From: Sycon ciliatum
Taxonomy: Eukaryota; Porifera; Calcarea; Leucosolenida; Sycettidae
DNA length: 64,000 bases
Direction: 5' to 3'
Assembly (NCBI RefSeq): GCF_964019385.1
Contig: NC_088651.1
Coordinates: 3,935,237-3,999,236 of the forward strand
The notes under the pieces are model-generated. The model was not told the origin of the DNA, made no database searches, and saw only the letters and a program-made list of their open reading frames with translations. The translations under genes were made by a program, and so were the position numbers. Within the stretch, counting starts at the first letter, position 1. Every line of letters begins with the position of its first letter. Positions 287 to 42,481 of this stretch are shown piece after piece.

Positions 287-450
287 TCGACGAGGAGACA
301 ATAATTTTAATATGGCAATAAGTAGGACGAGCTGAAGCGACATGTGGACTACTTTATTAACAATGTAAGCGATGGAGACGATGCAAGAAACAACCTAAAG
401 GGTAAGGAAAAATACATGTAAGAAGAAAAAGGGCAATGGAAAAAAAAGAT

Positions 451-488
451 GATTCGAACAAGTTTTCGTACAACACTCTTCAGGAATC
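451..488 (-). ncRNA. Type I hammerhead ribozyme in PLE pseudo-LTR
   Basis: On the minus strand: stem I GATTC/GAATC, core CTGAAGA, short stem II GTG-TTG-TAC, GAAA, stem III AC-TT-GT, cleavage triplet TTC. It is identical to the plus copy at 3523-3560. Hammerheads with minimal stem III in PLE pseudo-LTRs are an established feature of this retroelement class. Confidence 0.8.
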
Positions 489-771
489 ACCGTTGTACTA
501 AAGAACAAAATGAGAACAAAGGAAATAATATAGCAATCAAGGTAGGGTGACACGATACAATGACAGCACTAGAATATCGAGGTGCGATTTCTCACAAAAG
601 TGTGCAGAAAACAAGGGTATACAAGTAAGAACTAAGCGTGACAAGTGTGTATCAGCAACAAAAAACAAAAAAGTGAGAACGAATGATAATAATAACAATA
701 ATAAACAAGAAGGTGACAAAACACATTTAGGCACAAGTGGCAACAACGTTGCCACACTACACAACAGAACA

Positions 772-1240
772 TTATTTGAACAATTTTAGGGTAATAACAC
801 TATCTTTCTGGACACACAAATTCGGCTTATGAATGCGCTGACAAACAGCTTCCAAAACTTGTAACTGCAAAAGATAACCATGACGAGCACGGCACAAAAC
901 AGAAAAACAGGAATCAGAATAAGTACGACAACAGTCAGTACTAGAAACCAAATGATTGTATACTGAAGACTTGTTATTACGAGACGGACGCACACAATCT
1001 CGACTCACGCGCACACCCTCACACTCCCTCTCACCCTCACTCAGCTCACCTTCTCCCTCACTGTCCGAATCAGAACCTGCTCCGTCATCCACCACGGTTT
1101 GACTCTCCTCCTCACTTGCATCGTCCTGCGTCTCACCTTCACCACCCACGCCAACCCTGAATGCCGTTGCCTTCACGTCAGTCGTCGTCCTTTCCGATTG
1201 TTTCCTTTGTATTTTTCCCGTGAATTCATAGGTCCGGTTG
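772..1240 (-). CDS. PLE C-terminal fragment (GIY-YIG C-terminal half)
   Basis: The minus frame from NRTYEFT to LKLFK and stop contains an acidic serine-rich linker and then the conserved PLE tail (SSVYNHL, LEAVCQRIHKPNLC, VQKDSV). The tail corresponds to the C-terminal part of the GIY-YIG nuclease, including the glutamate in LEAV. It is a truncated copy inside a pseudo-LTR, essentially identical to the end of the plus-strand PLE at 2767-3239. It is not expected to make a protein alone. Confidence 0.7.
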
Positions 1241-3239
1241 ACATCTGTATGGATGTATTGTACCGTAACGATGATGTTGATACTCCATGGGTATCGGAAG
1301 CGGCGTTTCGTCATTTGATGCTGTCAGTTACAACTGGTGTCGAATTTTCGTTCAACGATGTGATGTACAAGCAAGTAGATGGTGTGGCGATGGGATCTCC
1401 TCTTGGTCCCGTCCTCGCCAATATATTCGTTGGTTATTGTGAGTGCAAGATTGATGAGTCGCTTTGGCCCGCGTTCTACGTGCGTTTTGTTGACGATTCG
1501 TTCACGCATTTTGACAGTGTTGAGAGCAGTGAATTGTTTCTCGATGTGCTCAACAACCTACATCCTTCCCTCCGCTTTACTTGTGAGCACGAGCAGTCTA
1601 GTAAGTTGTCATTTCTAGACGTGCTTGTAGAGAAGACTGGCTGTGAAATGTTGACTTCTGTGTATCGTAAGCCTACGTTCACCACGAGCAGTCTAGTAAG
1701 TTGTCATTTCTAGACGTGCTTGTAGAGAAGACTGGCTGTGAAATGTTGACTTCTGTGTATCGTAAGCCTACGTTCACCGGTCAGTACATTGCCTTCGATT
1801 CATATTGTTCGTTTCAATACAAGGTCAACTTAGTTCGTAACCTCGTGGACCGTGCGAAACGTATTTGTTCGCCCAGTAAGCAGCAGGCCGAGCTCGATTT
1901 CCTTCGATCTGTTTTCTTGAAAAATGGCTACCCGGAATTCTTGTTGCGTAAGTTTCTGTCCATGGAGCAGAAACCGAAATCGGTGCTGATTGGTCCACCT
2001 CGCTGTCCCGTCTATCTATGTTTGCCATGGAAGGGGCAGGAATCGATCAAAGTGTGTCACGCAGTCAAGTCTATCGTCCGTCGTACTTATTATGCAGTAC
2101 ATTTTGTGCCAGTCTTCACAACAATGCGTGCGTTCACGGTGCGGAAGGACGTCCTACCAACCCTCCACCTCAGTCATGTTATCTACAACTTCGAATGCCG
2201 ACATTGTGCTAGTCGGTATGTTGGTAGGACTGTTCAGCACCTGAACGCACGTATCAAACAACACACTCCACTTCACATCCTTCCACCCAGTGCGCAATCT
2301 GAGAGGCCCAAACGCGGGAGGCCTAGGAAAAACCCATCACCTAGACGGCAGGATAGTTCCCTGCCGCTGTCTGCCGCTCCCCCTCTGACATCTGTGTTGG
2401 ACGGGCTGGAGCTTGGCAGCTCTTTGGAGGTGCGTGCGGAACCGCCACTGGTGCAGCCCTCGGGTGTGCCTAAGTCTGTGCCTCTGGGTGCTTTGCATGG
2501 GGCTGTGCCTCGAGTGGTGACAGCACCTCTGCCTCCCCCTGACCCTCCTCCTTCGAGGTCTGTGTTGGTGGGGAGCACCCGTGGTGGTCGATTTGTCCCA
2601 CCGGAACCAGAGCTGGATTCAACAGAAAGACCAACAACCATGGCGGCAACAACAACACCAGCTTCACATCCAACAACAACACCAGGTTCACATCCAACAA
2701 CAACAACAACAACAACTAATCCACAAAACAAAGCAGCAAATGACAGACCACGGAGATCTACAGCAGATTACAACCGGACCTATGAATTCACGGTAAAAAT
2801 ACAAAGGAAACAATCGGAAAGGACGACGACTGACGTGAAGGCAACGGCATTCAGGGTTGGCGTGGGTGGTGAAGGTGAGACGCAGGACGATGCAAGTGAG
2901 GAGGAGAGTCAAACCGTGGTGGATGACGGAGCAGGTTCTGATTCGGACAGTGAGGGAGAAGGTGAGCTGAGTGAGGGTGAGAGGGAGTGTGAGGGTGTGC
3001 GCGTGAGTCGAGATTGTGTGCGTCCGTCTCGTAATAACAAGTCTTCAGTATACAATCATTTGGTTTCTAGTACTGACTGTTGTCGTACTTATTCTGATTC
3101 CTGTTTTTCTGTTTTGTGCCGTGCTCGTCATGGTTATCTTTTGCAGTTACAAGTTTTGGAAGCTGTTTGTCAGCGCATTCATAAGCCGAATTTGTGTGTC
3201 CAGAAAGATAGTGTTATTACCCTAAAATTGTTCAAATAA
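1241..3239 (+). pseudogene. PLE-1 reverse transcriptase / GIY-YIG endonuclease, frameshifted
   Basis: Part 1 (to 1713) carries RT motifs: VDGVAMGSPLGPVLANIF, YVRFVDDSF (catalytic DD) and LSFLDVLVEKTG with VYRKPTFT. A 95-bp tandem duplication shifts the frame and brings in a stop. Part 2 resumes from the second duplicate and reads to 3239. It has the RT tail, then a GIY-YIG core: VIYNFECRHC (GIY strand plus CxxC), RYVGRT (YIG strand) and helix LNARIKQH with the catalytic Arg. About 200 residues of low-complexity linker follow, opening with an AT-hook (RGRPRK) and containing acidic stretches. The nuclease C-terminal half (LEAVCQRIHKPNLC) comes after the linker. The GIY-YIG fold thus appears split by a DNA-binding linker. 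The N-terminus is absent, so this is a dead copy. Confidence 0.85.
1588..1778 (+). repeat. 95-bp exact tandem duplication inside RT
   Basis: Bases 1588-1683 recur as 1683-1778 (offset 95 bp, both ending GTTCACC). Because 95 is not a multiple of three, the duplication itself causes the frameshift in PLE-1. It spans the end of the RT thumb/motif region (SSKLSFLDVL to RKPTFT). Confidence 0.95.
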
Positions 3240-3522
3240 TGTTCTGTTGTGTAGTGTGGCAACGTTGTTGCCACTTGTGCCTAAATGTGTTTTGTCACCT
3301 TCTTGTTTATTATTGTTATTATTATCATTCGTTCTCACTTTTTTGTTTTTTGTTGCTGATACACACTTGTCACGCTTAGTTCTTACTTGTATACCCTTGT
3401 TTTCTGCACACTTTTGTGAGAAATCGCACCTCGATATTCTAGTGCTGTCATTGTATCGTGTCACCCTACCTTGATTGCTATATTATTTCCTTTGTTCTCA
3501 TTTTGTTCTTTAGTACAACGGT

Positions 3523-3560
3523 GATTCCTGAAGAGTGTTGTACGAAAACTTGTTCGAATC
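3523..3560 (+). ncRNA. Type I hammerhead ribozyme in PLE-1 3' region
   Basis: Stem I GATTC/GAATC, extendable outwards to about 8 bp with flanking bases; CTGAAGA core; stem II GTG-TTG-TAC; GAAA; stem III AC-TT-GT; cleavage after TTC at 3555. All invariant core nucleotides are present. Confidence 0.85.
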
Positions 3561-3699
3561 ATCTTTTTTTTCCATTGCCCTTTTTCTTCTTACATGTATT
3601 TTTCCTTACCCTTTAGGTTGTTTCTTGCATCGTCTCCATCGCTTACATTGTTAATAAAGTAGTCCACATGTCGCTTCAGCTCGTCCTACTTATTGCCAT

Positions 3700-3871
<172 letters not shown>

Positions 3872-3998
3872 TAAATAGGCGTCGAGGCGACAATAGTTTT
3901 AGAATTGCGATCAACAGAACGAGCTGAACCGACATTTTCACAAAGGCTTTTATTGTATTCAAAAAACGAGTGTATACGAAGGCATTGTAAACTCAGTG

Positions 3999-5086
3999 GT
4001 GAGCTCGAATTTCTCCGTTCAGTTTTCACCAAAAACGGATACCCAGGCGACATGTTGGCAAAACTATTGTCTACAGCCCCCACGCCGAAACATGAATTGA
4101 TAGGGCCTGCTCGTTGTCCTGTCTTTTTGTGCTTACCATGGAAGGGCAAGAAGTCTGACAATGTGAGTCGTGAAGTTCGTGCGATCATCAAACAAACCTA
4201 CTATGCGGTACACTTCATACCCGTCTACACAACGATGCGTTCGTTCACGGTGTTGAAGGACGTCCTACCAACCCATCATTTAAGTCATGTAATCTACAAC
4301 TTTGAATGCCGGAATTGTGCTAGCCGGTATGTTGGTAGGACTGTTCAGCACCTGAGCGAACGCATCAAGCAACACACTCCTTTACACATTATCCCACGTA
4401 GCGCACAACTGGAGCGTCCCACGCGGGGAAGACCCCGTAAACAACCACTACCTCCGCCAACACAGGACCTAGCGTCTCACTCGACAAGTCCACCATTGGC
4501 TCCCGTGGCCATGAACAAGTCACTCCCTCCACCAGCGGAGGTGGATGTGGCTTTGGCGACGCCACGTGTGTTGCATGCAGACACGTTTGCATCAGCATCG
4601 CTTGCTGCATCACCGGCAGAGACGACAACAATACCTACCTCAATATCAACGAGACCCAGAAGAACAACTGCTAATTACACCATGACCTATTTCAGTACGG
4701 AAGTACCGAGCCAACGGAATACACAACAGGAACGTGAGACGAGGAATGGGAGGAGACGGGACCTGATTGCTCCGAGGCAGGAAGTCGTTGAGGAGGATTC
4801 GGCCAGTGAGTCCAGTGATTCCGGTGAGTGTGAGAGCGAGAATGATCGTGTGAGTAAGAGTGGGTGCGAGCGTGTGTTTTCTAGTAGGAAGTCATCAGTG
4901 TATAAGCATCTTGCATCTCGTCCTGATTGCTGTAAGGTTTATTCTGATTCTTCTTTTTCTGTTTTGTGCCGTGCTCGTCATGGTTATAAGTTGCAGTTGA
5001 GTGTGTTAGAAGCCGTTTGTCAACGTCTTCATAAGCCTAATCTGTGTGTCCAGAAGGACAGCATTATTCGTTTGAAATTGTTTTAG
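3999..5086 (+). CDS. PLE-2 C-terminal RT and GIY-YIG nuclease (5'-truncated)
   Basis: PLE homology starts at ELEFLRSVFTKNGYPGDML; the upstream part of the open frame is translated pseudo-LTR. The frame contains KQTYYAVHFIPVYTTMRSF, then the GIY-YIG core VIYNFECRNC, RYVGRT, and SERIKQH with the catalytic Arg. An AT-hook RGRPRK follows, then a linker rich in Pro, Thr and Ser, an acidic Ser/Glu segment and the conserved tail SSVYKHL, LEAVCQRLHKPNLC. The split nuclease architecture matches PLE-1. The frame is open to the natural stop, but RT catalytic motifs are missing, so it is non-autonomous. Confidence 0.8.
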
Positions 5087-5302
5087 TAGCAACTTGTTCT
5101 GTCTGTTTGGCTCTGGTTGGCCATGGTGTCATATCTTGTGTCACAGTATACTAGTAGTCCTTACAAGTTCGTTAAGTGCTTTCGCAGTTTTTCCTGTTAT
5201 TACCTTAGTGCTAGGATTATCATTTTCATAGGTGTTGTTTCTTCTCACTCCATTTCTCTTTATTAGTATCTTTCTGGATTGTTTTTCATTAGTACAACGT
5301 AG

Positions 5303-5338
5303 CTTCCTGAGGAGTGTTGTGCGAAAACTAGTTCGAAG
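5303..5338 (+). ncRNA. Type I hammerhead ribozyme of PLE-2
   Basis: Stem I CTTC/GAAG, core CTGAGGA, stem II GTG-TTG-TGC (weak, with wobbles), GAAA, palindromic stem III ACTAGT, cleavage triplet TTC. Relative to PLE-1, the stem I bases changed on both sides while pairing was kept, which supports selection on structure. Confidence 0.82.
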
Positions 5339-5488
5339 TACAAATTTTTTGTTCATCATTTCTTCCATATCACATTTTTTCTTTCTTCCATGTTCTTCAC
5401 TGCCTTCGTATACACTCGTTTTTTGAATACAATAAAAGCCTTTGTGAAAATGTCGGTTCAGCTCGTTCTGTTGATCGCAATTCTAAAA

Positions 5489-5509
5489 TAATAATAATAA
5501 TAATAATAA
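5489..5509. repeat. (AAT)n tract between two PLE 3' ends
   Basis: A short trinucleotide tract. PLE-2 (plus) and PLE-3 (minus) both terminate on it, tail to tail. Confidence 0.9.
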
Positions 5510-5580
5510 CGAAGGTACGTGTTGGGTCGTAAGTATCCACGCAAACACACATCCAGTCAAAATAAGGCACTTGTCAAAGT

Positions 5581-5614
5581 ATCCGAACGTTTTCGGTCCC
5601 TTCTCATCAAGGAT
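5581..5614 (-). ncRNA. Diverged hammerhead of PLE-3 (core TTGATGA)
   Basis: Minus strand: stem I ATCC/GGAT, core TTGATGA (C3 changed to U), a nine-base stem II region with poor pairing, GAAA, palindrome ACGT, then TC and GGAT. U3 could still wobble-pair with G8. The weak stem II makes activity doubtful. The second copy in the inverted arm lacks the 5' half of stem I. Confidence 0.5.
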
Positions 5615-5768
5615 TATACAGGGAATGGCTCAAGTTGGAAAGACTAAAACTTATATAGCGTAAAGATATGAGATAACAACACTCGTGACAAGGTGGAAAA
5701 AGTATCAAGTTCAGCACGACACAAAACTCGAAGGAAATAATAATAGCGACAAGAACATAGTGAGCAAA

Positions 5769-6574
5769 TTAAGTTACATTGTTAACACCTCGACGAGGAG
5801 TAACACCAAACAATTGTAGCGACAACACATTTTCTTTCTGTACGCAAAGTTCAGGATCTAACTTACGGATATACAAAGCTTCTAACACAGCCAGATGCAA
5901 CGCACATCTACCACGTGACAATATTGAGAACACATTATCACTGTACAACTCACGACAATTGGTACGGGCTGACAGATGTTGCTTGATGGACGAAGTGCGA
6001 TTCTTAGCTCCGTTGGGTGTAGTCTCCTCCAATGTCCCGTCATCTCGCCTCTTCGCGGCATCACCACTATCCGTCTCTTTGCTTTTCCGCGGCCTTCCAC
6101 GTTTTCTGACACTAGCCGTTGTGTGCGCGATGCCCAGTGTCCTTTCAGCTACGTCTCCTCCATTGCGGATTTCTATTGATCTTCTTACTCCAACTTGTCC
6201 GGTGTTCGAGATTGAGGTTAGTTTTCGCGGTCTACCACGTTTTCGAATATTGACTGTTGTTGTCACTTCCGTTGTCGTTGTACGGGCGTCCTCACCCGTC
6301 CGTATTTTTACTTGGCTTCGCGTAACCCTTCCCGACGCAGACAGATCCTTTGTCAATTTCGGTGGTTTACGTGTCGGTCTTTCACCATCTTTCACGCTGT
6401 TCTCAGCTGGACCCTGCGCTATACACGCGGAGGAGGACGGGCATGCAGTGATATCTTCACAGGAAGAGGAAGATCCACCGATGGACTGGACAGCACATTT
6501 TGGAGGACGACCACGGCGAGGACGACACTCACGCGAATCAAGCGGAACAAAACTTAACGGCACATGTTGACGAA
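5769..6574 (-). CDS. PLE-3 C-terminal protein with three AT-hooks
   Basis: The open minus frame starts, after pseudo-LTR sequence, at IRQHVPLSFVP (helix after the YIG strand). It then has three AT-hook motifs: RRGRPPK, KRGRPRK and KRGRPRK, spread over a linker of more than 150 residues. The PLE nuclease tail follows (SSIKQHLSARTNC, LAVLEALYIRKLDPELC, VQKENV). AT-hooks bind the minor groove of AT-rich DNA. Their placement within the nuclease suggests a role in choosing AT-rich targets such as (AAT)n. RT and the first half of GIY-YIG are absent by truncation. Confidence 0.72.
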
Positions 6575-6730
6575 TGATGAGAAGGGACCGAAAACGTTCG
6601 GATACTTTGACAAGTGCCTTATTTTGACTGGATGTGTGTTTGCGTGGATACTTACGACCCAACACGTACCTTCGTTATTAAAGTATTATCCGCCTCCGAC
6701 TTCTTGTAAAATAATAATAATAATAATAAT

Positions 6731-7004
6731 GTAGAAGAGAAAAGGACATATGGATACGAGTTAAGAGTAACTCTCCATCACTGTAACATGATACTTTATA
6801 CAGTCAGAAAGTGCAATAACTAGGCACAAAACTGACAGAGTACTGAAACATTCGACGTCCTGACACCTAGCTTCAACACATCTCCGTAGCGCTAACCGAC
6901 AGCCTTCCAACGTATCATGTTACAGTGATGGAGAGTTACTCTTAACTCGTATCCATATGTCCTTTTCTCTTCTACATTTATTTATGGCTCAACATCCGAG
7001 TTTC
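6731..7004. repeat. Truncated retrozyme copy forming a hairpin
   Basis: Bases 6731-6908 match the start of the 592-bp unit (minus orientation). From 6909 a 95-bp piece of the same unit follows inverted, ending at CCGAGTTTCA just before the hammerhead would start. An (AAT)n tract precedes (6711-6730) and follows it (about 7003-7026). There is no ribozyme in this copy. Confidence 0.8.
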
Positions 7005-7535
7005 AATAATAATAATAATAATATTAATGTAAAAGAGAAAAGGACATATGGATACGAGTTAAGAGTAACTCTCCATCACTGTAACATGATACTATATACA
7101 GTCAGAAAGTGCAATAACTAGGCACAAAACTGACAGAGTACTGAGACATTCGACGTCCTGACACCTAACTTCAACACATCTCCGTAGCGCTAACCGACAG
7201 CCTTCCAACTTGGAAGGTTCAAGGTTAAGGAAAGACCAAAGAGGGGAAGGCAAGCGCAACGAAAACGAGCAAAAGCTACAGTCTCAACGGAACAAAGAAT
7301 GTCGATTGTTACTGGACGATGACGAGACCAGTACGATATTTGACAAAGCGGTCTAACTACAATTCGAAGCAGCAAAGCAGCACACCACCCAACTTGGGTG
7401 GGTCATAAATATCAAAGATAAGTAAAGAAAGGGAAGCTTTGCGAAAACGAATTGTACAAGCCGAAAGCCAAACTCCTACAGTACTCCTCATGCATGACAT
7501 TGTGATGGACTAGTTGACTACAAAACAAGTTGTTT

Positions 7536-7584
7536 CACACGACGTACGTTTCGCCGTATGGTTCGTGACGGCTCATCAGGTGTG
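7536..7584 (-). ncRNA. Hammerhead ribozyme, 592-bp family, copy 1
   Basis: A 49-nt type I hammerhead. Stem I CACAC/GTGTG (5 bp), canonical CTGATGA core, stem II GCCGT/ACGGC with a 10-nt loop, GAAA, palindromic stem III CGTACG, cleavage triplet GTC. Every invariant position is present and all stems are fully paired. It is the best-formed ribozyme in the window. Confidence 0.93.
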
Positions 7585-8127
7585 CAATTTGAAACTCGGA
7601 TGTTGAGCCATAAATAAATGTGGAAGAGAAAAAGACATATGGATACGAGTTAAGAGTAACTCTCCATCACTGTAACATGATACTATATACAGTCAGAAAG
7701 TGCAATAACTAGGCACAAAACTGACAGAGTACTGAAACATTCGACGTCCTGACACCTAGCTTCAACACATCTCCGTAGCGCTAACCAACAGCCTTCCAAC
7801 TTGGAAGGTTCAAGGTTATCGAAAAGACCAAAGAGGGGAAGGCAAGCGCAACGAAAACGAGCAAAAGCTACAGTCTCAACGGAACAAAGAATGTCGATTG
7901 TTACTGGACGATGACGAGACCAGTACGATATTTGACAAAGCGGTCTAACTACAATTCGAAGCAGCAAAGCAGCACACCACCCAACTTGGGTGGGTCATAA
8001 ATATCAAAGATAAGTAAAGAAAGGGAAGCTTTGCGAAAACGAATTGTACAAGCCGAAAGCCAAACTCCTACAGTACTCCTCATGCATGACATTGTGATGG
8101 ACTAGTTGACTACAAAACAAGTTGTTT

Positions 8128-8176
8128 CACACGACGTACGTTTCGCCGTATGGTTCGTGACGGCTCATCAGGTGTG
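8128..8176 (-). ncRNA. Hammerhead ribozyme, 592-bp family, copy 2
   Basis: Identical by eye to copy 1, 592 bp further on. Stems, core and GTC cleavage site are intact. Confidence 0.93.
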
Positions 8177-8719
8177 CAATTTGAAACTCGGATGTTGAGC
8201 CATAAATAAATGTGGAAGAGAAAAAGACATATGGATACGAGTTAAGAGTAACTCTCCATCACTGTAACATGATACTATATACAGTCAGAAAGTGCAATAA
8301 CTAGGCACAAAACTGACAGAGTACTGAAACATTCGACGTCCTGACACCTAGCTTCAACACATCTCCGTAGCGCTAACCAACAGCCTTCCAACTTGGAAGG
8401 TTCAAGGTTATCGAAAAGACCAAAGAGGGGAAGGCAAGCGCAACGAAAACGAGCAAAAGCTACAGTCTCAACGGAACAAAGAATGTCGATTGTTACTGGA
8501 CGATGACGAGACCAGTACGATATTTGACAAAGCGGTCTAACTACAATTCGAAGCAGCAAAGCAGCACACCACCCAACTTGGGTGGGTCATAAATATCAAA
8601 GATAAGTAAAGAAAGGGAAGCTTTGCGAAAACGAATTGTACAAGCCGAAAGCCAAACTCCTACAGTACTCCTCATGCATGACATTGTGATGGACTAGTTG
8701 ACTACAAAACAAGTTGTTT

Positions 8720-8768
8720 CACACGACGTACGTTTCGCCGTATGGTTCGTGACGGCTCATCAGGTGTG
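8720..8768 (-). ncRNA. Hammerhead ribozyme, 592-bp family, copy 3
   Basis: Same 49-nt structure in the third unit of the minus half. Confidence 0.93.
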
Positions 8769-9311
8769 CAATTTGAAACTCGGATGTTGAGCCATAAATA
8801 AATGTGGAAGAGAAAAAGACATATGGATACGAGTTAAGAGTAACTCTCCATCACTGTAACATGATACTATATACAGTCAGAAAGTGCAATAACTAGGCAC
8901 AAAACTGACAGAGTACTGAAACATTCGACGTCCTGACACCTAGCTTCAACACATCTCCGTAGCGCTAACCAACAGCCTTCCAACTTGGAAGGTTCAAGGT
9001 TATCGAAAAGACCAAAGAGGGGAAGGCAAGCGCAACGAAAACGAGCAAAAGCTACAGTCTCAACGGAACAAAGAATGTCGATTGTTACTGGACGATGACG
9101 AGACCAGTACGATATTTGACAAAGCGGTCTAACTACAATTCGAAGCAGCAAAGCAGCACACCACCCAACTTGGGTGGGTCATAAATATCAAAGATAAGTA
9201 AAGAAAGGGAAGCTTTGCGAAAACGAATTGTACAAGCCGAAAGCCAAACTCCTACAGTACTCCTCATGCATGACATTGTGATGGACTAGTTGACTACAAA
9301 ACAAGTTGTTT

Positions 9312-9360
9312 CACACGACGTACGTTTCGCCGTATGGTTCGTGACGGCTCATCAGGTGTG
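9312..9360 (-). ncRNA. Hammerhead ribozyme, 592-bp family, copy 4
   Basis: Same 49-nt structure in the fourth unit of the minus half. Confidence 0.93.
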
Positions 9361-9903
9361 CAATTTGAAACTCGGATGTTGAGCCATAAATAAATGTGGA
9401 AGAGAAAAAGACATATGGATACGAGTTAAGAGTAACTCTCCATCACTGTAACATGATACTATATACAGTCAGAAAGTGCAATAACTAGGCACAAAACTGA
9501 CAGAGTACTGAAACATTCGACGTCCTGACACCTAGCTTCAACACATCTCCGTAGCGCTAACCAACAGCCTTCCAACTTGGAAGGTTCAAGGTTATCGAAA
9601 AGACCAAAGAGGGGAAGGCAAGCGCAACGAAAACGAGCAAAAGCTACAGTCTCAACGGAACAAAGAATGTCGATTGTTACTGGACGATGACGAGACCAGT
9701 ACGATATTTGACAAAGCGGTCTAACTACAATTCGAAGCAGCAAAGCAGCACACCACCCAACTTGGGTGGGTCATAAATATCAAAGATAAGTAAAGAAAGG
9801 GAAGCTTTGCGAAAACGAATTGTACAAGCCGAAAGCCAAACTCCTACAGTACTCCTCATGCATGACATTGTGATGGACTAGTTGACTACAAAACAAGTTG
9901 TTT

Positions 9904-9952
9904 CACACGACGTACGTTTCGCCGTATGGTTCGTGACGGCTCATCAGGTGTG
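9904..9952 (-). ncRNA. Hammerhead ribozyme, 592-bp family, copy 5
   Basis: Same 49-nt structure in the fifth unit of the minus half. Confidence 0.93.
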
Positions 9953-10495
9953 CAATTTGAAACTCGGATGTTGAGCCATAAATAAATGTGGAAGAGAAAA
10001 AGACATATGGATACGAGTTAAGAGTAACTCTCCATCACTGTAACATGATACTATATACAGTCAGAAAGTGCAATAACTAGGCACAAAACTGACAGAGTAC
10101 TGAAACATTCGACGTCCTGACACCTAGCTTCAACACATCTCCGTAGCGCTAACCAACAGCCTTCCAACTTGGAAGGTTCAAGGTTATCGAAAAGACCAAA
10201 GAGGGGAAGGCAAGCGCAACGAAAACGAGCAAAAGCTACAGTCTCAACGGAACAAAGAATGTCGATTGTTACTGGACGATGACGAGACCAGTACGATATT
10301 TGACAAAGCGGTCTAACTACAATTCGAAGCAGCAAAGCAGCACACCACCCAACTTGGGTGGGTCATAAATATCAAAGATAAGTAAAGAAAGGGAAGCTTT
10401 GCGAAAACGAATTGTACAAGCCGAAAGCCAAACTCCTACAGTACTCCTCATGCATGACATTGTGATGGACTAGTTGACTACAAAACAAGTTGTTT

Positions 10496-10544
10496 CACAC
10501 GACGTACGTTTCGCCGTATGGTTCGTGACGGCTCATCAGGTGTG
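10496..10544 (-). ncRNA. Hammerhead ribozyme, 592-bp family, copy 6
   Basis: Last ribozyme of the minus half, about 250 bp before the orientation switch. Confidence 0.93.
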
Positions 10545-10855
10545 CAATTTGAAACTCGGATGTTGAGCCATAAATAAATGTGGAAGAGAAAAAGACATAT
10601 GGATACGAGTTAAGAGTAACTCTCCATCACTGTAACATGATACTATATACAGTCAGAAAGTGCAATAACTAGGCACAAAACTGACAGAGTACTGAAACAT
10701 TCGACGTCCTGACACCTAGCTTCAACACATCTCCGTAGCGCTAACCAACAGCCTTCCAACTTGGAAGGTTCAAGGTTATCGAAAAGACCAAAGAGGTCCA
10801 TATGTCTTTTTCTCTTCCACATTTATTTATGGCTCAACATCCGAGTTTCAAATTG

Positions 10856-10904
10856 CACACCTGATGAGCCGTCACGAACCATACGGCGAAACGTACGTCG
10901 TGTG
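10856..10904 (+). ncRNA. Hammerhead ribozyme, 592-bp family, copy 7
   Basis: First ribozyme of the plus half, 60 bp after the orientation switch. Same sequence as copies 1-6. Confidence 0.93.
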
Positions 10905-11447
10905 AAACAACTTGTTTTGTAGTCAACTAGTCCATCACAATGTCATGCATGAGGAGTACTGTAGGAGTTTGGCTTTCGGCTTGTACAATTCGTTTTCGCA
11001 AAGCTTCCCTTTCTTTACTTATCTTTGATATTTATGACCCACCCAAGTTGGGTGGTGTGCTGCTTTGCTGCTTCGAATTGTAGTTAGACCGCTTTGTCAA
11101 ATATCGTACTGGTCTCGTCATCGTCCAGTAACAATCGACATTCTTTGTTCCGTTGAGACTGTAGCTTTTGCTCGTTTTCGTTGCGCTTGCCTTCCCCTCT
11201 TTGGTCTTTTCGATAACCTTGAACCTTCCAAGTTGGAAGGCTGTTGGTTAGCGCTACGGAGATGTGTTGAAGCTAGGTGTCAGGACGTCGAATGTTTCAG
11301 TACTCTGTCAGTTTTGTGCCTAGTTATTGCACTTTCTGACTGTATATAGTATCATGTTACAGTGATGGAGAGTTACTCTTAACTCGTATCCATATGTCTT
11401 TTTCTCTTCCACATTTATTTATGGCTCAACATCCGAGTTTCAAATTG

Positions 11448-11496
11448 CACACCTGATGAGCCGTCACGAACCATACGGCGAAACGTACGTCGTGTG
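11448..11496 (+). ncRNA. Hammerhead ribozyme, 592-bp family, copy 8
   Basis: Same 49-nt structure, plus strand. Confidence 0.93.
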
Positions 11497-12039
11497 AAAC
11501 AACTTGTTTTGTAGTCAACTAGTCCATCACAATGTCATGCATGAGGAGTACTGTAGGAGTTTGGCTTTCGGCTTGTACAATTCGTTTTCGCAAAGCTTCC
11601 CTTTCTTTACTTATCTTTGATATTTATGACCCACCCAAGTTGGGTGGTGTGCTGCTTTGCTGCTTCGAATTGTAGTTAGACCGCTTTGTCAAATATCGTA
11701 CTGGTCTCGTCATCGTCCAGTAACAATCGACATTCTTTGTTCCGTTGAGACTGTAGCTTTTGCTCGTTTTCGTTGCGCTTGCCTTCCCCTCTTTGGTCTT
11801 TTCGATAACCTTGAACCTTCCAAGTTGGAAGGCTGTTGGTTAGCGCTACGGAGATGTGTTGAAGCTAGGTGTCAGGACGTCGAATGTTTCAGTACTCTGT
11901 CAGTTTTGTGCCTAGTTATTGCACTTTCTGACTGTATATAGTATCATGTTACAGTGATGGAGAGTTACTCTTAACTCGTATCCATATGTCTTTTTCTCTT
12001 CCACATTTATTTATGGCTCAACATCCGAGTTTCAAATTG

Positions 12040-12088
12040 CACACCTGATGAGCCGTCACGAACCATACGGCGAAACGTACGTCGTGTG
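12040..12088 (+). ncRNA. Hammerhead ribozyme, 592-bp family, copy 9
   Basis: Same 49-nt structure, plus strand. Confidence 0.93.
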
Positions 12089-12631
12089 AAACAACTTGTT
12101 TTGTAGTCAACTAGTCCATCACAATGTCATGCATGAGGAGTACTGTAGGAGTTTGGCTTTCGGCTTGTACAATTCGTTTTCGCAAAGCTTCCCTTTCTTT
12201 ACTTATCTTTGATATTTATGACCCACCCAAGTTGGGTGGTGTGCTGCTTTGCTGCTTCGAATTGTAGTTAGACCGCTTTGTCAAATATCGTACTGGTCTC
12301 GTCATCGTCCAGTAACAATCGACATTCTTTGTTCCGTTGAGACTGTAGCTTTTGCTCGTTTTCGTTGCGCTTGCCTTCCCCTCTTTGGTCTTTTCGATAA
12401 CCTTGAACCTTCCAAGTTGGAAGGCTGTTGGTTAGCGCTACGGAGATGTGTTGAAGCTAGGTGTCAGGACGTCGAATGTTTCAGTACTCTGTCAGTTTTG
12501 TGCCTAGTTATTGCACTTTCTGACTGTATATAGTATCATGTTACAGTGATGGAGAGTTACTCTTAACTCGTATCCATATGTCTTTTTCTCTTCCACATTT
12601 ATTTATGGCTCAACATCCGAGTTTCAAATTG

Positions 12632-12680
12632 CACACCTGATGAGCCGTCACGAACCATACGGCGAAACGTACGTCGTGTG
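12632..12680 (+). ncRNA. Hammerhead ribozyme, 592-bp family, copy 10
   Basis: Last ribozyme of the array. The unit then runs to the terminal (AAT)n. Confidence 0.93.
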
Positions 12681-13186
12681 AAACAACTTGTTTTGTAGTC
12701 AACTAGTCCATCACAATGTCATGCATGAGGAGTACTGTAGGAGTTTGGCTTTCGGCTTGTACAATTCGTTTTCGCAAAGCTTCCCTTTCTTTACTTATCT
12801 TTGATATTTATGACCCACCCAAGTTGGGTGGTGTGCTGCTTTGCTGCTTCGAATTGTAGTTAGACCGCTTTGTCAAATATCGTACTGGTCTCGTCATCGT
12901 CCAGTAACAATCGACATTCTTTGTTCCGTTGAGACTGTAGCTTTTGCTCGTTTTCGTTGCGCTTGCCTTCCCCTCTTTGGTCTTTTCGATAACCTTGAAC
13001 CTTCCAAGTTGGAAGGCTGTTGGTTAGCGCTACGGAGATGTGTTGAAGCTAGGTGTCAGGACGTCGAATGTTTCAGTACTCTGTCAGTTTTGTGCCTAGT
13101 TATTGCACTTTCTGACTGTATATAGTATCATGTTACAGTGATGGAGAGTTACTCTTAACTCGTATCCATATGTCTTTTTCTCTTCC

Positions 13187-13417
13187 ACAATAATAATAAT
13201 AATAATAATAATAAAGGTTTGCTCCCCACACCGGAGCTCGCGCTATTCCGCCGACTTTACTTGACACTTGACTGACTCACGACTGCCATCCAGAGCACAC
13301 GAGAAGTCCATCGAACCTTCGACTCGGCAAACCTGCAAGAAAGCACCACTCCCTGAGCTCCGGTGTGGGGAGCAAACCTTTCTTACAAATCATCGCCGAA
13401 GTCGCAACCACTACTTC

Positions 13418-13420
<3 letters not shown>
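13187..13420. repeat. Fragment of second hammerhead-repeat family (family B), hairpin
   Basis: After (AAT)n (13187-13214) comes a sequence whose ends are inverted repeats: AAAGGTTTGCTCCCCAC near 13215 and GTGGGGAGCAAACCTTT near 13365. Inside is the block CTGACTCACGACTGCCATCC and GAGCACACGAGAAGTCCATC, also found at 49.4-49.7, 53.5 and 58.7 kb. At 49.5 kb that family carries a hammerhead; this copy lacks it. It ends in another (AAT)n. Confidence 0.7.
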
Positions 13421-13532: not shown

Positions 13533-13535
<3 letters not shown>

Positions 13536-14563
13536 GAGGCCGGGGCTTGGTCTCTTGTGAGGATATGCACGGCCGGAGCATGTGTGGCCTGGCCCGCTAC
13601 ATGAGTACCAGCCCAATAGACAGAATAAGCCTGCTTTATCAGTATCATCAACAAAAACCTACAACAAAAAGCCACTCAATAACTGCAAAGGCCGCTAAGT
13701 TCCTGTCGAGTTTGGATCTGCCAGCAGCTGGACCAGCTTTACCCAATAAGCATACCATTAAACAAGCGTGCGCTGAGCGAAAATCCAAAACACTTTCCAC
13801 TATGCCGCTGCATGGGAGATATTGGAGCCGATTGGAGGAGAATCGCCTAGATAAGGAGCTTACCTTCATGTGGTTGAAATCAAGGACACTGAAACCTTCA
13901 ACTGAAGGCATGATTATGGCAGCACAAGACCAATCCCTCAAAACGAAAAATTACCAATACGCCATAATGAAGTCAATTCCTCGAACTGATGCCAATTGCA
14001 GGCTTTGCAAGGGCAGCTTAGAAACAATTGACCACATTGTCAGTGCCTGCCCAGTTCTTGCTCGGACCAGTTACATTGAACGACATCACCGGATAGTAAA
14101 GTATGTGCACTTCGAAATGTGTAAAGCACGAGATCTACCTACTGGTGCTTCACGATTCGACCACCAGCTCAAGGCATTGGTCAAGAGTAATCAGTATCGC
14201 CTCTATTGGGAGTATTCGGTCCCAACTGACCTGAAACTATCAGCAAACAGGCCCGATCTGCTCCTTGTTGATGACAAGGAGCGCATCGCCTACATTATAG
14301 ACATCAGCGTTCCTGGTGAGAACAACATCAATAAGAAAATGGCTGAAAAGCGCTCGAAATATTATGATTTGAAGCGGGAGATTTCGAGGATTTGGTCCCT
14401 CAACCAGGTTGACGTGGTCCCTGTGGTTGTCGGTGCCCTGGGAGGCTTGGTGGGGGAGACTCCTCAATACCTTCGGACTGTGCAGGGAGGAGACCTGGCT
14501 ATTGTGCAACAGGAGGCTATACAAGGTTCGATTAAAATACTGAGAACTATCCTTAACATGTAG
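13533..14563 (+). CDS. R2-like LINE C-terminus: CCHC finger and restriction-like endonuclease
   Basis: The frame is open from the truncation point (GGRGLVSCEDMHGRSMC) to the stop. Around the middle lies a Cys-Cys-His-Cys finger (CRLC, then HIVSAC; CX2CX8HX4C). A restriction-like endonuclease site follows: RPD...IIDISVP (PD-X14-D) with downstream Lys/Tyr residues (KMAEKRSKYYDLK). This layout is diagnostic of R2/R4/NeSL-type elements, whose nuclease nicks the target for target-primed reverse transcription. Unlike copy B, the codon at 13813 is AGA and the frame is uninterrupted, but RT is missing. Confidence 0.85.
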
Positions 14564-14917
14564 ATGCACCTCTGCTGCGTTTGCATGTTCAATAGCTAAG
14601 AGACTTGAATAACGACTGATAAAGACTGATATTTCCTTTGTTACTACTCCCTTCATTGGTTGATGTATTTTGCCTGTCGCTGCGAATTCTTTATTATTGT
14701 TTTGATGTTGGAGTTCGGATTGAGTTTCTTTCCTTTCTTCCTCTTCCTTCAACTAGTTCTTGTCCCTTTGGTTTTTAGGTTTTATTTATTTATTTATTTT
14801 TGTTTTTGTTTTTTCACTTTCTTTTTACTGTCCCACCCATGGAAATATTTCCCGGTGGGTCTGGCTTATCGCCTTCGAAAGAAGTGAATAAAGGAGAAAT
14901 AATAATAATAATAATAA
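13533..14917 (+). mobile_element. R2-like non-LTR retrotransposon, copy A (5'-truncated)
   Basis: This copy contains only the C-terminal third of the ORF plus a 3' UTR ending ...AATAAAGGAGAA and an (AAT)n tail at about 14898-14917. It is nearly identical to copy B from 16287 onward. The 5' truncation falls precisely at an (AAT)n tract. Confidence 0.85.
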
Positions 14918-15227
14918 TCCCGTTCTCCCCTCTTTTTTGGGTATTCTTTGTACTTCGTCTTTCTTGTTTTTCTTGTTCCTTTGTTTTTTGTAGGACAGAT
15001 TTTTGGTGTACTGATTTCGGTTGTTGTTGTGTCTGACTCTATTCCCAATATCTAATTATGTGTTTGGTTTTCCAACTCATTGGGTTGTAGTTTCCATCAT
15101 GAGTTTGATTCCTTTGTGAGTTTTGATTCTATTTGCTATTTTTCGTTCCATTTTTGAGCTCACATCTATCTGCTTTTTTGGTGTTATTGGCTCGGACAAG
15201 AGGCTTCTTTCCATATAATAATAATAA
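14918..15227. other. Gap between LINE copies, no gene seen
   Basis: T-rich sequence with no supported coding region, ending in a short (AAT)n (15217-15227) at the truncation point of copy B. I see nothing else in it. Confidence 0.6.
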
Positions 15228-17315
15228 ATGCCCAAAGATTATAGACCAATTACGTGTCTTCCGATACAGTACAAGCTCTTTACCGCCGCCATATCGAAGA
15301 TTATGTGGCAGCACATCAATCAACATGAAATACTTGCAACGGAGCAGCGCGGTTGTGCAGCAGCTGGTCTTGGTTGCAAGGAGCACCTGATGGTGGATAA
15401 GATGATTCTGGAGGATGCCCATACGAAAGGGCGAAATCTGGTCATGGCATACCTGGACTTCAAAAAGGCATTTGATAGTGTGTCGCATGAATGGATTCTA
15501 CATGCTTTGACGATGTATCGATTCCACCCGTCTTTGGTCACAACTATTGCTCGTAGCATGCGGAACTGGAGAACGACAATGCACATATGCGACCAGGGAA
15601 GATGCAGGGTCACTACCGGCAACATTTCAATAAGAAGAGGCATATTTCAAGGTGACACATTATCCCCGTTACTGTTTTGCCTGGCGCTAAACCCAATCAG
15701 TTTTGAGCTCAACCGATTGCCTTTGGGATACAGAGTCAGCTGCAGAGACGCCGAGGTGTCTATCAATCACTCTTGGTACATGGACGACATTAAACTCTAT
15801 GGGAAAACTACAAAGGATGTGACTACCCTCGTGTCTACCGTGTGTGGCGTTGGTGATGACATCGGCATGAATCTCAACCCGGCCAAGTGTGCCGTGCTGC
15901 ACGTCAGGAGAGGAAAACCAGATGAAGGATGCTCTATCCAGGTTGGCGATGAGACCATTGCAGAGTCGCTACGACTCAATGAAACATACAAGTACCTTGG
16001 AGTAGTGCAAGCAGCCATGATACCTCACCCGAAGCTCAAGACGCAACTCACTGCAGAATACAACAAGAGATTGTATTTGCTTCTTAACAGTGGATTGAAT
16101 GCGCGAAACATGATCAAGGCCATCAATACGTATGCTCTGCCGGTTATGACATATAGTTATGGAATCGTAAATTGGACCGAGGCTGAAATCAAGACCACAC
16201 ATGGAGTGACAAGATCATCCTTGACTGCGTCTGGATTTCACCACCCCAAAGCCTCAGTCAACAGGCTCTACATGAAGAGGAGAGATGGAGGCCGGGGCTT
16301 GGTCTCTTGTGAGGATATGCACGGCCGGAGCATGTGTGGCCTGGCCCGCTACATGAGTACCAGCCCAATAGACAGAATAAGCCTGCTTTATCAGTATCAT
16401 CAACAAAAACCTACAACAAAAAGCCACTCAATAACTGCAAAGGCCGCTAAGTTCCTGTCGAGTTTGGATCTGCCAGCAGCTGGACCAGCTTTACCCAATA
16501 AGCATACCATTAAACAAGCGTGCGCTGAGCGAAAATCCAAAACACTTTCCACTATGCCGCTGCATGGGTGATATTGGAGCCGATTGGAGGAGAATCGCCT
16601 AGATAAGGAGCTTACCTTCATGTGGTTGAAATCAAGGACACTGAAACCTTCAACTGAAGGCATGATTATGGCAGCACAAGACCAATCCCTCAAAACGAAA
16701 AATTACCAATACGCCATAATGAAGTCAATTCCTCGAACTGATGCCAATTGCAGGCTTTGCAAGGGCAGCTTAGAAACAATTGACCACATTGTCAGTGCCT
16801 GCCCAGTTCTTGCTCGGACCAGTTACATTGAACGACATCACCGGATAGTAAAGTATGTGCACTTCGAACTGTGTAAAGCACGAGATCTACCTACTGGTGC
16901 TTCACGATTCGACCACCAGCTCAAGGCATTGGTCAAGAGTAATCAGTATCGCCTCTATTGGGAGTATTCGGTCCCAACTGACCTGAAACTATCAGCAAAC
17001 AGGCCCGATCTGCTCCTTGTTGATGACAATGAGCGCATCGCCTACATTATAGACATCAGCGTTCCTGGTGAGAACAACATCAATAAGAAAATGGCTGAAA
17101 AGCGCTCGCAATATTATGATTTGAAGCGGGAGATTTCGAGGATTTGGTCCCTCAACCAGGTTGACGTGGTCCCTGTGGTTGTCGGTGCCCTGGGAGGCTT
17201 GGTGGGGGAGACTCCTCAATGCCTTCGGACTGTGCAGGGAGGAGACCTGGCTATTGTGCAACAGGAGGCTATACAAGGTTCGATTAAAATACTGAGAACT
17301 ATCCTTAACATGTAG
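15228..17315 (+). pseudogene. R2-like LINE polyprotein, RT plus endonuclease, one internal stop
   Basis: RT motifs in order: DYRPITCLP, LDFKKAFDSVSHEWI (motif A), GIFQGDTLSPLLFCLAL (motif B), SWYMDDIKLYG (catalytic YMDD), MNLNPAKC, and YKYLGV. The CCHC finger (CRLC...HIVSAC) and endonuclease (RPD...IIDISVP) follow. A TGA at 16569-16571 replaces the AGA found in copy A, breaking an otherwise open frame of nearly 700 codons. The 5' truncation removes the N-terminal zinc-finger/Myb region. Copies A and B differ at only a few positions, so insertion was recent. Confidence 0.87.
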
Positions 17316-17543
17316 ATGCACCTCTGCTGCGTTTGCATGTTCAATAGCTAAGAGACTTGAATAACGACTGATAAAGACTGATATTTCCTTTGTTACTACT
17401 CCCTTCATTGGTTGATGTATTTTGCCTGTCGCTGCAAATTCTTTATTCTTGTTTCGATGTTGGAGTTCGGATTGAGTTTCTTTCCTTTCTTCCTTTTCCT
17501 TCAACTAGTTCTTGTCCCTTTGGTTTTTAGGTTTTATTTATTG

Positions 17544-17550
<7 letters not shown>

Positions 17551-17578
<28 letters not shown>

Positions 17579-18603: not shown

Positions 18604-18709
18604 ATTTATTTTTGTTTTTGTTTTTTCACTTTCTTTTTGCTGTCCCACCCATGGAAATATTTCCCGGTGGGTCTGGCTTATCGCCTTCGAAAGAAGTGAA
18701 TAAAGGAGA

Positions 18710-18740
<31 letters not shown>

Positions 18741-19323: not shown

Positions 19324-19477
19324 GGTAGAAAGGAAAAGGACATATGGAAACGAGTTAAGAGTAACTATCCATCACTGTAACTAGATACTATATACAGTCA
19401 GAAAGTGCAACAACTAGGCACAAAACTGACAGAGTACAGAGTACTGAGACATTCGACGTCCTGACACTGAGTTTCAA
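19323..19477 (-). repeat. Solo fragment of the 592-bp retrozyme
   Basis: About 150 bp matching the unit start (GAGTTAAGAGTAACT, CAGTCAGAAAGTGCAA, ATTCGACGTCCTGACAC), with substitutions. It is flanked on both sides by (ATT)n tracts (about 19292-19322 and 19478-19493). The hammerhead part is absent. It shows the family is dispersed, not only tandem. Confidence 0.8.
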
Positions 19478-36920: not shown

Positions 36921-37937
36921 TTTGAGACTCTAAAAACGTAAACGTGATCAAAAATTAATAATGTTGCTAATGGCGGCCAGGCAAGGAATCGGAAAGAATC
37001 AAACCGAGATGTCGAGATATTCCACGACTTATCCACTCATGCTTATCGTATAGTATAAGAGTACGGTTACTTCTAAGGAGTTCAAGATACGCCCTACAAC
37101 CTAAGGTGTATCCATATTGATTAATGTGCTGTAAATGAACACAATTAATGCTGGCTTTTTCCTTTCTACATTAATTTTATTATTGGCTCAATATCCGATT
37201 TTTAACATAATGCTGGCCCGTGAGAAGTTGACTCATCTCGAGTGACACTTTTGGCCGTCATCAAACTTTGGTCGATTGGGGTTTTCGAAAAAGATCGATC
37301 GATAGTTGTTCCTCTCACTGCCTCAATATTGCATAATTTGTCTCTAGAACAAACTTAGGGTGGCGATCTATTTGGGATGGATACCTCCAAGCCACGAAAT
37401 CAGCGAAATAAAATCGCAAGGAAAAATATTGATCGACAGTAGTTTGGTACTCAGTAATACATATAATTATTACTAATGGTCCTTCTCAATCTGCGGAAAG
37501 AACTGTTTCGTCCTACAGGAATTTATAAGCGCAACACAGAGAAAATGAGGCCGAAAATTCGGTACATCAGCTTTACTGGTCACATGTATTTAAGTCTGGG
37601 TAAGATGTACGGACGTAGCATTGGGAAACTGTTTCTCCAACTATCTGCACCCACGACCTGATATCAGCCATCAGAATTTACACAATTTCTGTCGAACTTG
37701 ACACCTAACTTACTGCATCGCCTATTTCACGTGCAGTAGAAACTTTAAGCTAACAAACGGGTACCTGGCTTAACGCGCGTGTTTCTTGTACCCTTTAGCA
37801 AGCCATACACCCTTTACAAGAGCATTGTCACTGGTTATGATCTTAAACACAAAGCCTCTTTTACGGGCATTCTGGAAGCATTTCTAGCCAGAATGAATCT
37901 TCTTCTTGAGAAAGAAAGAGAGAGAGAAAGAGAGAGT

Positions 37938-39755: not shown

Positions 39756-40160
39756 ATAGACTTACGGAATAAAAAAAACTGTTATACCGCTGATTCAGTA
39801 AATCACTAACTCAGAGCCAAGGCACAGGCGACTCGCTAAAGTGCCGTCTACAGTACATCCAAGTAGGCATACTTTTTCATTTTACAGGCTAAGTTATATT
39901 ATTATTATTGTAAAGCTTTCCTTTTGATCTTGTCTCTTATTGTTGTGACCTTTCCACAATAATTGTGTTGCATTGTCAAAAAATAAAATAAATAAAATAA
40001 ATTTGAACAAACGGCGAGGAGACAACAATTTGATAACCGCAATCAGTAATACAAGCTGGATCGACATTTGTGTACACTGTATTCATGTATTGTAAAACTG
40101 TGGACACAATGTGCAATAAAACGATGAAAAATGTGAAGAAATTGTGTAGAGAAAGAAAGG

Positions 40161-40198
40161 GATTCAAACAAGTTTTCGTACAACACTCATCAGGAATC
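40161..40198 (-). ncRNA. Type I hammerhead of PLE-5, minus copy
   Basis: Stem I GATTC/GAATC, CTGATGA, stem II GTG-TTG-TAC, GAAA, stem III AC-TT-GT, cleavage triplet TTT (allowed NUH). Confidence 0.8.
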
Positions 40199-40428
40199 GT
40201 CGTTGTACTAAACGACACTGAAACAAAAATTGAACTATTATAGAAAATCTAAGTTAAAGAAATAACACTAAGAGCAACAACAGTGAAATTTACAAGTGTG
40301 AATTTTAACAATCAAAGCGAGCAATGAACAAAGGAGAAAGGAAGGAAAGACAACGTGATAACACATAACAGCAGTACATTACACCTAGAAAATTAACGGC
40401 CAAGCTTGGCCGCACTAAACACGACACG

Positions 40429-40536
40429 TTACTTGAACAATTTCAACCCAATTATACTATCTTTCTGTACACACAAATCAGGCTTGTACAGACGCTGATA
40501 GATAGCTTCCAACACTTTTAACTGTAGTCCATAACC
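40429..40536 (-). CDS. PLE-5 C-terminal nuclease tail
   Basis: 36 codons: GYGLQLKVLEAIYQRLYKPD, LCVQKDSIIGLKLFK and stop. This is the conserved end of the PLE GIY-YIG protein, closest to PLE-1. A fragment. Confidence 0.75.
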   Translation of the reverse strand, partial: GYGLQLKVLEAIYQRLYKPDLCVQKDSIIGLKLFK

Positions 40537-40660
40537 AATCGCTTTGATTGTTAAAATTCACACTTGTAAATTTCACTGTTGTTGCTCTTAGTGTTATTTC
40601 TTTAACTTAGATTTTCTATAATAGTTCAATTTTTGTTTCAGTGTCCTTTAGTACAACGAC

Positions 40661-40698
40661 GATTCCTGATGAGTGTTGTACGAAAACTTGTTTGAATC
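40661..40698 (+). ncRNA. Type I hammerhead of PLE-5, plus copy
   Basis: Same 38-nt structure as the minus copy at 40161-40198. Confidence 0.8.
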
Positions 40699-40879
40699 CC
40701 TTTCTTTCTCTGCACAATTTCTTCACATTTTTCATCGTTTTATTGCACATTGTGTCCACAGTTTTACAATACATGAATACAGTGTACACAAATGTCGATC
40801 CAGCTTGTATTACTGATTGCGGTTATCAAATAAAATAAATAAAAAATATAAAATTATTCATACTGCCAGCAAAAAAAAA

Positions 40880-42142: not shown

Positions 42143-42207
42143 ATACTTTATCTCCACTTTATCTCCACGTAGATTATTTTATCAGGTTCGGCCTCATTTT
42201 CTCTGTG

Positions 42208-42435: not shown

Positions 42436-42481
42436 CTGCGCTGATGAGTTCAAAAAGAACGAAACAGCATGCTGTCCGCAG
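42436..42481 (+). ncRNA. Type I hammerhead ribozyme, family D, copy 2
   Basis: Identical to copy 1, offset 228 bp, defining a 228-bp monomer with both ends at the ribozyme. This is the hallmark layout of retrozymes. Confidence 0.92.

Follow-up and report, generated by a model that had tools for sequence, protein, structure and literature searches.

A 592-bp repeat in the calcareous sponge Sycon ciliatum is very probably an outsized, non-coding and non-autonomous retrozyme. It appears to be inserted by machinery of the Penelope-like element (PLE) type, with both DNA strands primed and most likely from a circular RNA. The repeat forms an array at 7029-13188 of the window, the 64,000 nucleotides of contig NC_088651.1 (positions 3,935,237 to 3,999,236, forward strand) that we analysed. 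The original prediction placed it in the retrozyme or hammerhead-satellite class, which is the right family. It overlooked the inverted architecture, which carries the evidence for PLE-type insertion. Copies across the genome show two fixed ends, one of each kind per insertion. They also show outward-facing arms, AT-rich targets and homogeneous units. One end is unit position 1 (the no-tail end), and the other is at 559-563 (the tail end), 33-34 nt apart.

The 592-bp array and its predicted hammerhead ribozyme

The array, called E2 here, repeats every 592 bp exactly, and each of its ten units holds one hammerhead, as was first described. The units are indeed tandem, but they do not form a single head-to-tail array. 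The order inverts at 10796/10797: six units with a minus-strand hammerhead are followed by four with a plus-strand one. The two arms meet there, the left one ending at unit position 217 and the right one at 24. The architecture is head-to-head, and the outward edge on both sides is unit position 1, against (AAT)n. Nine full units (five consecutive forward, four inverted) are 100% identical to one another. The leftmost unit is 98.8% identical, with differences confined to its first ~205 bp. We infer that E2 is a recombinant of two insertions; this would account for the deviating ~205 bp on the left as well as for the absence of a tail. E1, which lies outside the range originally noted, is a fragment of the same element. 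The copies and their parts are the following.

6710..6730, (AAT)n target left of E1
6731..7004, E1, a separate insertion in (AAT)n: plus arm 6731-6911 (no-tail end), inverted arm 6912-7004 (tail end)
7005..7023, (AAT)n target between E1 and E2
7029..10796, minus strand, left arm of E2, ~6.36 units of 592 bp, hammerhead sense on the minus strand
7029-7619, minus strand, unit 1 of E2, variant in its first ~205 bp; the blastn match starts at 7033 and the first four bases carry two substitutions
7541..7579, minus strand, hammerhead core of unit 1, predicted cleavage 3' of GTC
7587..7619, minus strand, tail stretch, shown in unit 1 (unit positions 560-592), between the two putative reverse-transcription start sites as placed from the insertion ends
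8133-8171, 8725-8763, 9317-9355, 9909-9947 and 10501-10539, minus strand, other hammerhead cores
10797..13188, plus strand, right arm of E2, 4.04 units, ending at unit position 1 (no tail) against (AAT)n
10861..10899, plus strand, hammerhead core of the first inverted unit
11453-11491, 12045-12083 and 12637-12675, plus strand, other hammerhead cores
13189..13214, (AAT)n target right of E2
19325..19477, E3, an older insertion in (TTA)n, 87% identity, no-tail left end; one arm by blastn, although inspection by eye assigns the final ~12 nt to an inverted arm ending at the tail site
37050..37210, plus strand, E4, a tentative and strongly decayed copy whose 3' side seems to end near the tail site (weak alignment)

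Rfam microRNA matches at 6927-7077 were rejected; they merely reflect the inverted repeat.

The unit has a G+C content of 43%. The longest ATG open reading frame (ORF) on the 592-nt circle is 47 aa. The unit is therefore non-coding, as predicted, and lacks the ORF with reverse transcriptase and GIY-YIG domains of an autonomous PLE. The circle folds at -177 kcal/mol (z -5.2 against 60 shuffles) with 60% of its bases paired, and its antisense at -152.8 kcal/mol.

Each hammerhead spans 49 nt and is of type I. It consists of a 5-bp stem I, CUGAUGA, a 5-bp stem II, GAAA, the palindromic ACGUACGU and the cleavage triplet GUC. A descriptor that requires core, stems and cleavage triplet finds all ten copies. 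On 8.76 Mb of dinucleotide-shuffled sequence, both strands, it gives 0 strict and 6 relaxed matches. The motif is thus above chance and stands as first reported, with its core, stems I and II and GTC. However, the ten hammerheads count as a single observation because the copies are clones. Stem III stands only as a palindrome: in a single molecule ACGUACGU pairs over 2 bp with a GUAC tetraloop, and full pairing is reached only as a dimer. Such weak helix III types occur in animal retrozymes, and those of the axolotl cut better as dimers, according to the cited part of PMC7229834. A hammerhead scan of viral contigs gave no match.

In 79 full genomic units, the hammerhead is variable only at the nucleotide that precedes the cleavage site, at one pair of stem II, which remains paired as U-G, and at two positions of loop II. 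The variant cleavage triplet is still a permitted one (NUH), and no invariant core residue is altered (positions mapped by hand). These variants, though few, are as would be expected under selection for cleavage.

Insertion ends in the genome and in Penelope-like elements

The 538-Mb genome holds at least 230 matches to the unit, dispersed over many contigs. This is a lower bound, since 40 of 1642 first-look candidates were scored. Ends were read in 37 two-armed insertions: 27 in a first set, including two in the window, and 10 in a second. The first 24 genome regions were picked mostly where the matches lay on both strands. Conversely, the second set comprised ten loci chosen for looking one-armed; nine of them proved two-armed (one with two insertions, hence ten insertions) and one did not. 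The regions came from a picked list, so the share of one-armed copies does not extend to the whole genome. The counts exclude, as lying at a region edge or being a piece only, the first insertions of loci L051, L056 and L067 and the pieces in L071, L073, L103 and L106. A 76%-identical piece in L068 is also excluded.

Of the 27 insertions in the first set, 23 pair an end at unit position 1 with an end at 559-563. The window array has position 1 twice, and three insertions have one end elsewhere. All ten insertions of the second set have one end of each kind. Thus, where both ends were recognised, 33 of 34 insertions carry one of each; none is tail/tail and one, E2, is no-tail/no-tail. Independent choice would give one of each in half of the cases, and 33 of 34 would then have a probability of 35/2^34, ~2e-9 (calculated by hand). 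A tail on the left and a tail on the right are equally common (11 and 12 in the first set). This one-of-each rule suggests a single coordinated event in which each DNA strand takes one of the two putative start sites.

The paired arms face outward, and their flanks are AT-rich, usually (AAT)n. Inward-facing pairs were not observed; because the clustering separates matches wherever minus gives way to plus, any such pair would show up as one-armed pieces. Target duplications of 8, 9 and 10 bp are present at three insertions outside long simple repeats, and within (AAT)n they are indistinguishable. Two further duplications of about 10 bp were recognised by eye. A sub-variant of the unit (168A, 201C, 257T) is essentially identical at separate loci on contigs C7, C10 and C12 (L051-L053, E2, C12:4602921), which suggests very recent activity.

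PLEs of the window carry the same scar.

307..3704, plus strand, PLE-A, right end without tail, in (AAT)n; minimal hammerheads 456-483 (minus) and 3528-3555 (plus)
3871..5488, plus strand, PLE-B, right end without tail, inverted left arm 3871-3987 with tail, in (AAT)n; minimal hammerhead 5307-5334 (plus)
5494..6709, minus strand, PLE-C, left end without tail, inverted right arm 6575-6709 with tail, in (AAT)n
40001..40837, PLE-D, two outward 3' parts, the left with tail and the right without; minimal hammerheads 40166-40193 (minus) and 40666-40693 (plus)

PLE-B, PLE-C and PLE-D each have an outward inverted arm and an extension of ~30 nt at one end and none at the other. The left side of PLE-A was dropped as a candidate tail end: by eye, its inverted part reads on as the start of a PLE ORF toward the window edge. 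A genome search with the 3' end of PLE-B gave at least 40 matches (40 of 809 candidates scored). Among the listed matches, nearby opposite-strand pairs face outward in nine of nine cases and have one tailed and one tail-less end, likewise in nine of nine. The PLE-B tail is ~26-29 nt, and the targets of the pairs are AT-rich, mostly (AAT)n/(ATT)n. GIY-YIG matches in the window PLEs, PLE-B among them, are weak (E 0.0038 and 0.011), under the curated cut-off; relatives of PLE-B have RVT_1 and an equally weak GIY-YIG. Stem I of the minimal hammerheads is GAUUC/GAAUC in PLE-A and PLE-D and GCUUC/GAAGU in PLE-B, which includes a compensatory change.

This scar agrees with the biochemistry of PLEs, as far as the cited parts of the papers go. 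The purified enzyme of an Anolis PLE cuts a 5'-ATT-3' motif on each strand and extends both. It starts at two adjacent internal sites, whose interval corresponds to the genomic PLE tail, and a dimer is predicted by modelling (PMC11167929). In a rotifer PLE, a 31-bp tail is optional on one of two inverted pseudo-long terminal repeats (pLTRs), and duplications are 8-10 bp (PMC3846280). Common to PLEs and the 592-bp unit are the AT-rich target, two-strand priming, inverted copies and 8-10 bp duplications. The two adjacent internal start sites and the optional 30-40 bp tail are matched by the unit as read from genomic ends (PMC11167929, PMC3846280). As read from its genomic copies, then, the 592-bp retrozyme bears each genomic mark of PLE insertion, including the 8-, 9- and 10-bp duplications. 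Unlike PLEs, however, it codes for nothing. It works like a PLE at insertion and is not a PLE. The rule of exactly one tail (33 of 34; PLE-B, nine of nine) is not stated in the passages of both papers, which speak of an "optional" tail on "one of the inverted pLTRs".

The unit resembles metazoan non-LTR (long terminal repeat) retrozymes in its non-coding tandem repeats, in one type I hammerhead with all core residues in every unit, in a G+C content below 50% and in a self-paired RNA (Cervera and de la Pena 2020, PMC7229834). Its short stem III is like that of the axolotl HHR_Amex2 type, and both co-occur with PLEs (PMC7229834). Target duplications of those retrozymes, where present, exceed 4 bp, and the 8, 9 and 10 bp found here agree with this (PMC7229834). 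The unit was rightly noted as large: 592 bp exceeds both the ~170-400 nt and the descriptive range of ~150-450 bp given for animal retrozymes (PMC7229834). Its copies are outward inverted pairs with fixed ends and tails, whereas the cited part of PMC7229834 describes no such end signature. Plant LTR retrozymes (Cervera 2016, PMC4918200, details from PMC7229834) have a similar circle size (600-800 nt) and hammerhead processing. In contrast, they have type III hammerheads, LTRs, 4-bp duplications and a Gypsy helper, and the 592-bp unit has a type I hammerhead, no LTR-type ends and 8-10 bp duplications (PMC7229834). The minimal hammerheads of PLEs and Terminons are likewise of type I in retroelements of the PLE enzyme class (as cited in PMC7761336). 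They are minimal and belong to autonomous elements, whereas the 592-bp unit has longer stems and no ORF (PMC7761336).

Template, mechanism and alternatives

The template was most likely a circular RNA. A hammerhead-cut linear monomer would allow at most 547 bp from the tail site, whereas 40 of 54 arms are longer and the longest has 5209 bp. Arms range from under one unit to multimers, within the non-coding, low-G+C tandem-repeat type of metazoan retrozymes. Two units are identical in 119 of 174 pairs from the same insertion, in 48 of 69 pairs that span the two arms and in 7 of 276 pairs from different insertions. Variants within insertions number 28. Nineteen of them are restricted to a single insertion, and nine, all in unit 1 of E2, are present also in other insertions, several of them in only one other (L051, first insertion); four of these nine are an effect of blastn trimming and stand for two shared substitutions.

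The inner ends of the arms are evenly spread round the unit (Kolmogorov-Smirnov p 0.47), and 1 of 54 is at the cleavage site. The 27 arm junctions show an overlap of 1-9 bp in 16 cases, none in 6 and a filler of 1-23 bp in 5. Only one is mirror-like. Hairpin self-priming was rejected, given the non-mirrored junctions and the evenly spread inner ends. Priming at the 3' end of a hammerhead-cut monomer was also discarded, because the ends are not at the cleavage site and the arms are too long.

In the mechanism that we propose, the unit would be transcribed, and its type I hammerhead would divide multimeric RNA into pieces of 592 nt, to be circularised by a host ligase. The PLE reverse transcriptase/GIY-YIG enzyme, acting in trans, would introduce nicks some 8-10 bp apart into the two strands of an AT-rich target, in most cases (AAT)n. 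For each DNA strand, reverse transcription would begin at its own fixed site within the retrozyme RNA; the two sites would lie 33-34 nt apart, and the insertion ends would correspond to these starts. Each strand would copy round the RNA, often more than once. The two first-strand cDNAs would then be joined in the middle with little or no microhomology. The outcome would be outward-facing inverted arms of tandem units, one with a tail and one without. The enzyme, perhaps as a dimer, may also hold a single RNA circle and give each DNA strand one start site, so that both strands copy the same circle. We regard this coupled copying as evenly poised between right and wrong. It would leave exactly one tailed and one tail-less end per complete insertion.

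Several observations weigh against the proposed PLE-type insertion of a retrozyme from circular RNA. No Rfam family matches the 592-bp array at gathering score by cmscan, the covariance-model check suggested originally. Hammerhead_1 does reach 26.8 bits in each of the ten copies (E 0.0029 in a 7.4-kb stretch), below its cut-off of 34. The minimum-free-energy fold of the isolated motif is not a hammerhead (-14.2 against -8.9 kcal/mol). In the Anolis PLE, hammerhead mutants have no effect on insertion, according to the cited part of PMC11167929. E2, without a tail at either end, is an exception to the rule, and three insertions have one end at other positions (55, 16, 19). Four copies are one-armed by blastn (E3, L074, the second copy in L094, and C1:16.317M), although E3 and L074 are not clear-cut (L074 has a 15-base unit match at its inner edge). 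The nine PLE-B pairs were taken only where both arms were among the 40 matches. Finally, the unit has no blastn similarity to the window PLEs. Its similarity to their start-site regions is weak, with the exact offset ranking 28 of 592 and the best within 10 nt ranking 2.

PLE-type insertion could also proceed from an uncut multimeric transcript of a parent array. Such a transcript could stand in for the circle, which counts against our reading; the hammerhead would then be dispensable for insertion, and a homogeneous parent array would likewise yield homogeneous copies. However, some arrays are polymorphic inside, yet outside E2 no internal variant is common to two insertions. The hammerhead variants in the 79 units, few as they are, fall in loop II, a U-G pair or an NUH triplet, as if selected for cleavage. 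We consider this template possible, at rather low probability. The unit might instead be a solo or derived pLTR of a PLE family, that is, a PLE deletion derivative and not an independent retrozyme. It shares the end rule of PLE-B, the window PLEs also have minimal hammerheads near their 3' ends, and its start-site region is weakly similar to PLE-A and PLE-D. Against this stands the lack of blastn similarity already mentioned. In addition, the hammerhead is placed differently: in the unit it comes shortly downstream of the start sites, whereas PLE-A and PLE-B have it upstream of the no-tail end, by ~150 nt. Stem II of the unit has 5 bp instead of 3. Such an origin seems unlikely, slightly more so than the uncut template.

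Ordinary satellite DNA, grown by unequal crossing-over and immobile with a chance or relic hammerhead, would also give tandem arrays with one ribozyme per unit. The end structure leads us to reject it: the ends are fixed, the arms face outward, the targets are AT-rich with short duplications, and the copies are dispersed over many contigs, all of which contradicts it. The same holds for an assembly or sequencing artefact from fold-back reads. Perfectly identical inverted arms are a familiar pattern of such artefacts, but the 27 junctions lie at differing, mostly non-mirrored positions, and in 33 of 34 insertions only one of the two ends carries the tail. Both explanations are extremely improbable. 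The PLE-type retrozyme remains our preferred reading.

Other repeats of the window and implications

A second retrozyme, of classical size with a 228-bp period, gives a comparison.

42180-42489 and 46625-46934, plus strand, second retrozyme, 1.36 units of 228 bp; hammerheads at 42213, 42441, 46658 and 46886

Its hammerheads score 29-32 bits with Rfam HH9 (cut-off 52). We compared 20 loci from the Rfam model search plus the window copy. Eighteen were usable, L013 giving no match and L020 being decayed; two pairs, L011/L012 and L017/L018, are apparent duplicates. In 16 of 18 the end on the RNA 3' side falls at unit position 47-52, 11-16 nt past the cleavage site. In L002 this end is placed by eye only, and L019 has ends at 50 and 59. 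The opposite end is variable, and an inverted arm occurs in L019 only. The 228-bp retrozyme is without the two-start scar, so this signature is not general to hammerhead repeats. The 228-bp family thus has a different insertion mode and perhaps a different helper.

Further repeats lie nearby. A 1547-bp segment in two copies (41950-43496, 46395-47941), 100% identical, flanks a Mutator-like transposase ORF (43925-45811); it is either a recent duplication or an assembly effect. A third small hammerhead-associated family, possibly a PLE pLTR, is present at 13215-13418, 49404-49690 (minus) and 34609-34850, with a hammerhead at 49547-49580 (minus). Its copy at 13215-13418 has one plain end and one with an extension of ~39 nt, in (AAT)n. 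Fragments of long interspersed nuclear elements at 13533-18739 (RVT_1, zf-RVT) have 3' ends that likewise run into (AAT)n.

A full-text search of the open-licence literature gave no paper joining Sycon ciliatum and the hammerhead ribozyme. Among the listed matches in the same literature, judged by titles and the starts of abstracts, none held insertion-end evidence for the mobilisation of retrozymes by PLEs. PLEs have been proposed as the likely helper from co-occurrence and shared features (PMC7229834 and a second retrozyme paper), and the cited part of PMC7229834 names them only as a strong candidate. The original prediction invoked another element's enzyme and remarked on the PLEs nearby; it named no specific helper, and the insertion ends now point to PLE-type machinery.

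The enzyme that moves animal retrozymes has been an open question. Compared with co-occurrence, an insertion scar that is shared, specific and arbitrary provides far stronger evidence. The 228-bp retrozyme, with its different scar, suggests more than one helper for retrozymes in one genome. The rule of one tail per insertion is also new for the insertion of PLEs themselves, a poorly understood step. If coupled two-site copying of a circle is true, it would be a general mechanism of PLE insertion, which would explain the inverted pLTRs and their tails. Retrozymes would then be parasites of PLEs, in the manner of short interspersed nuclear elements.

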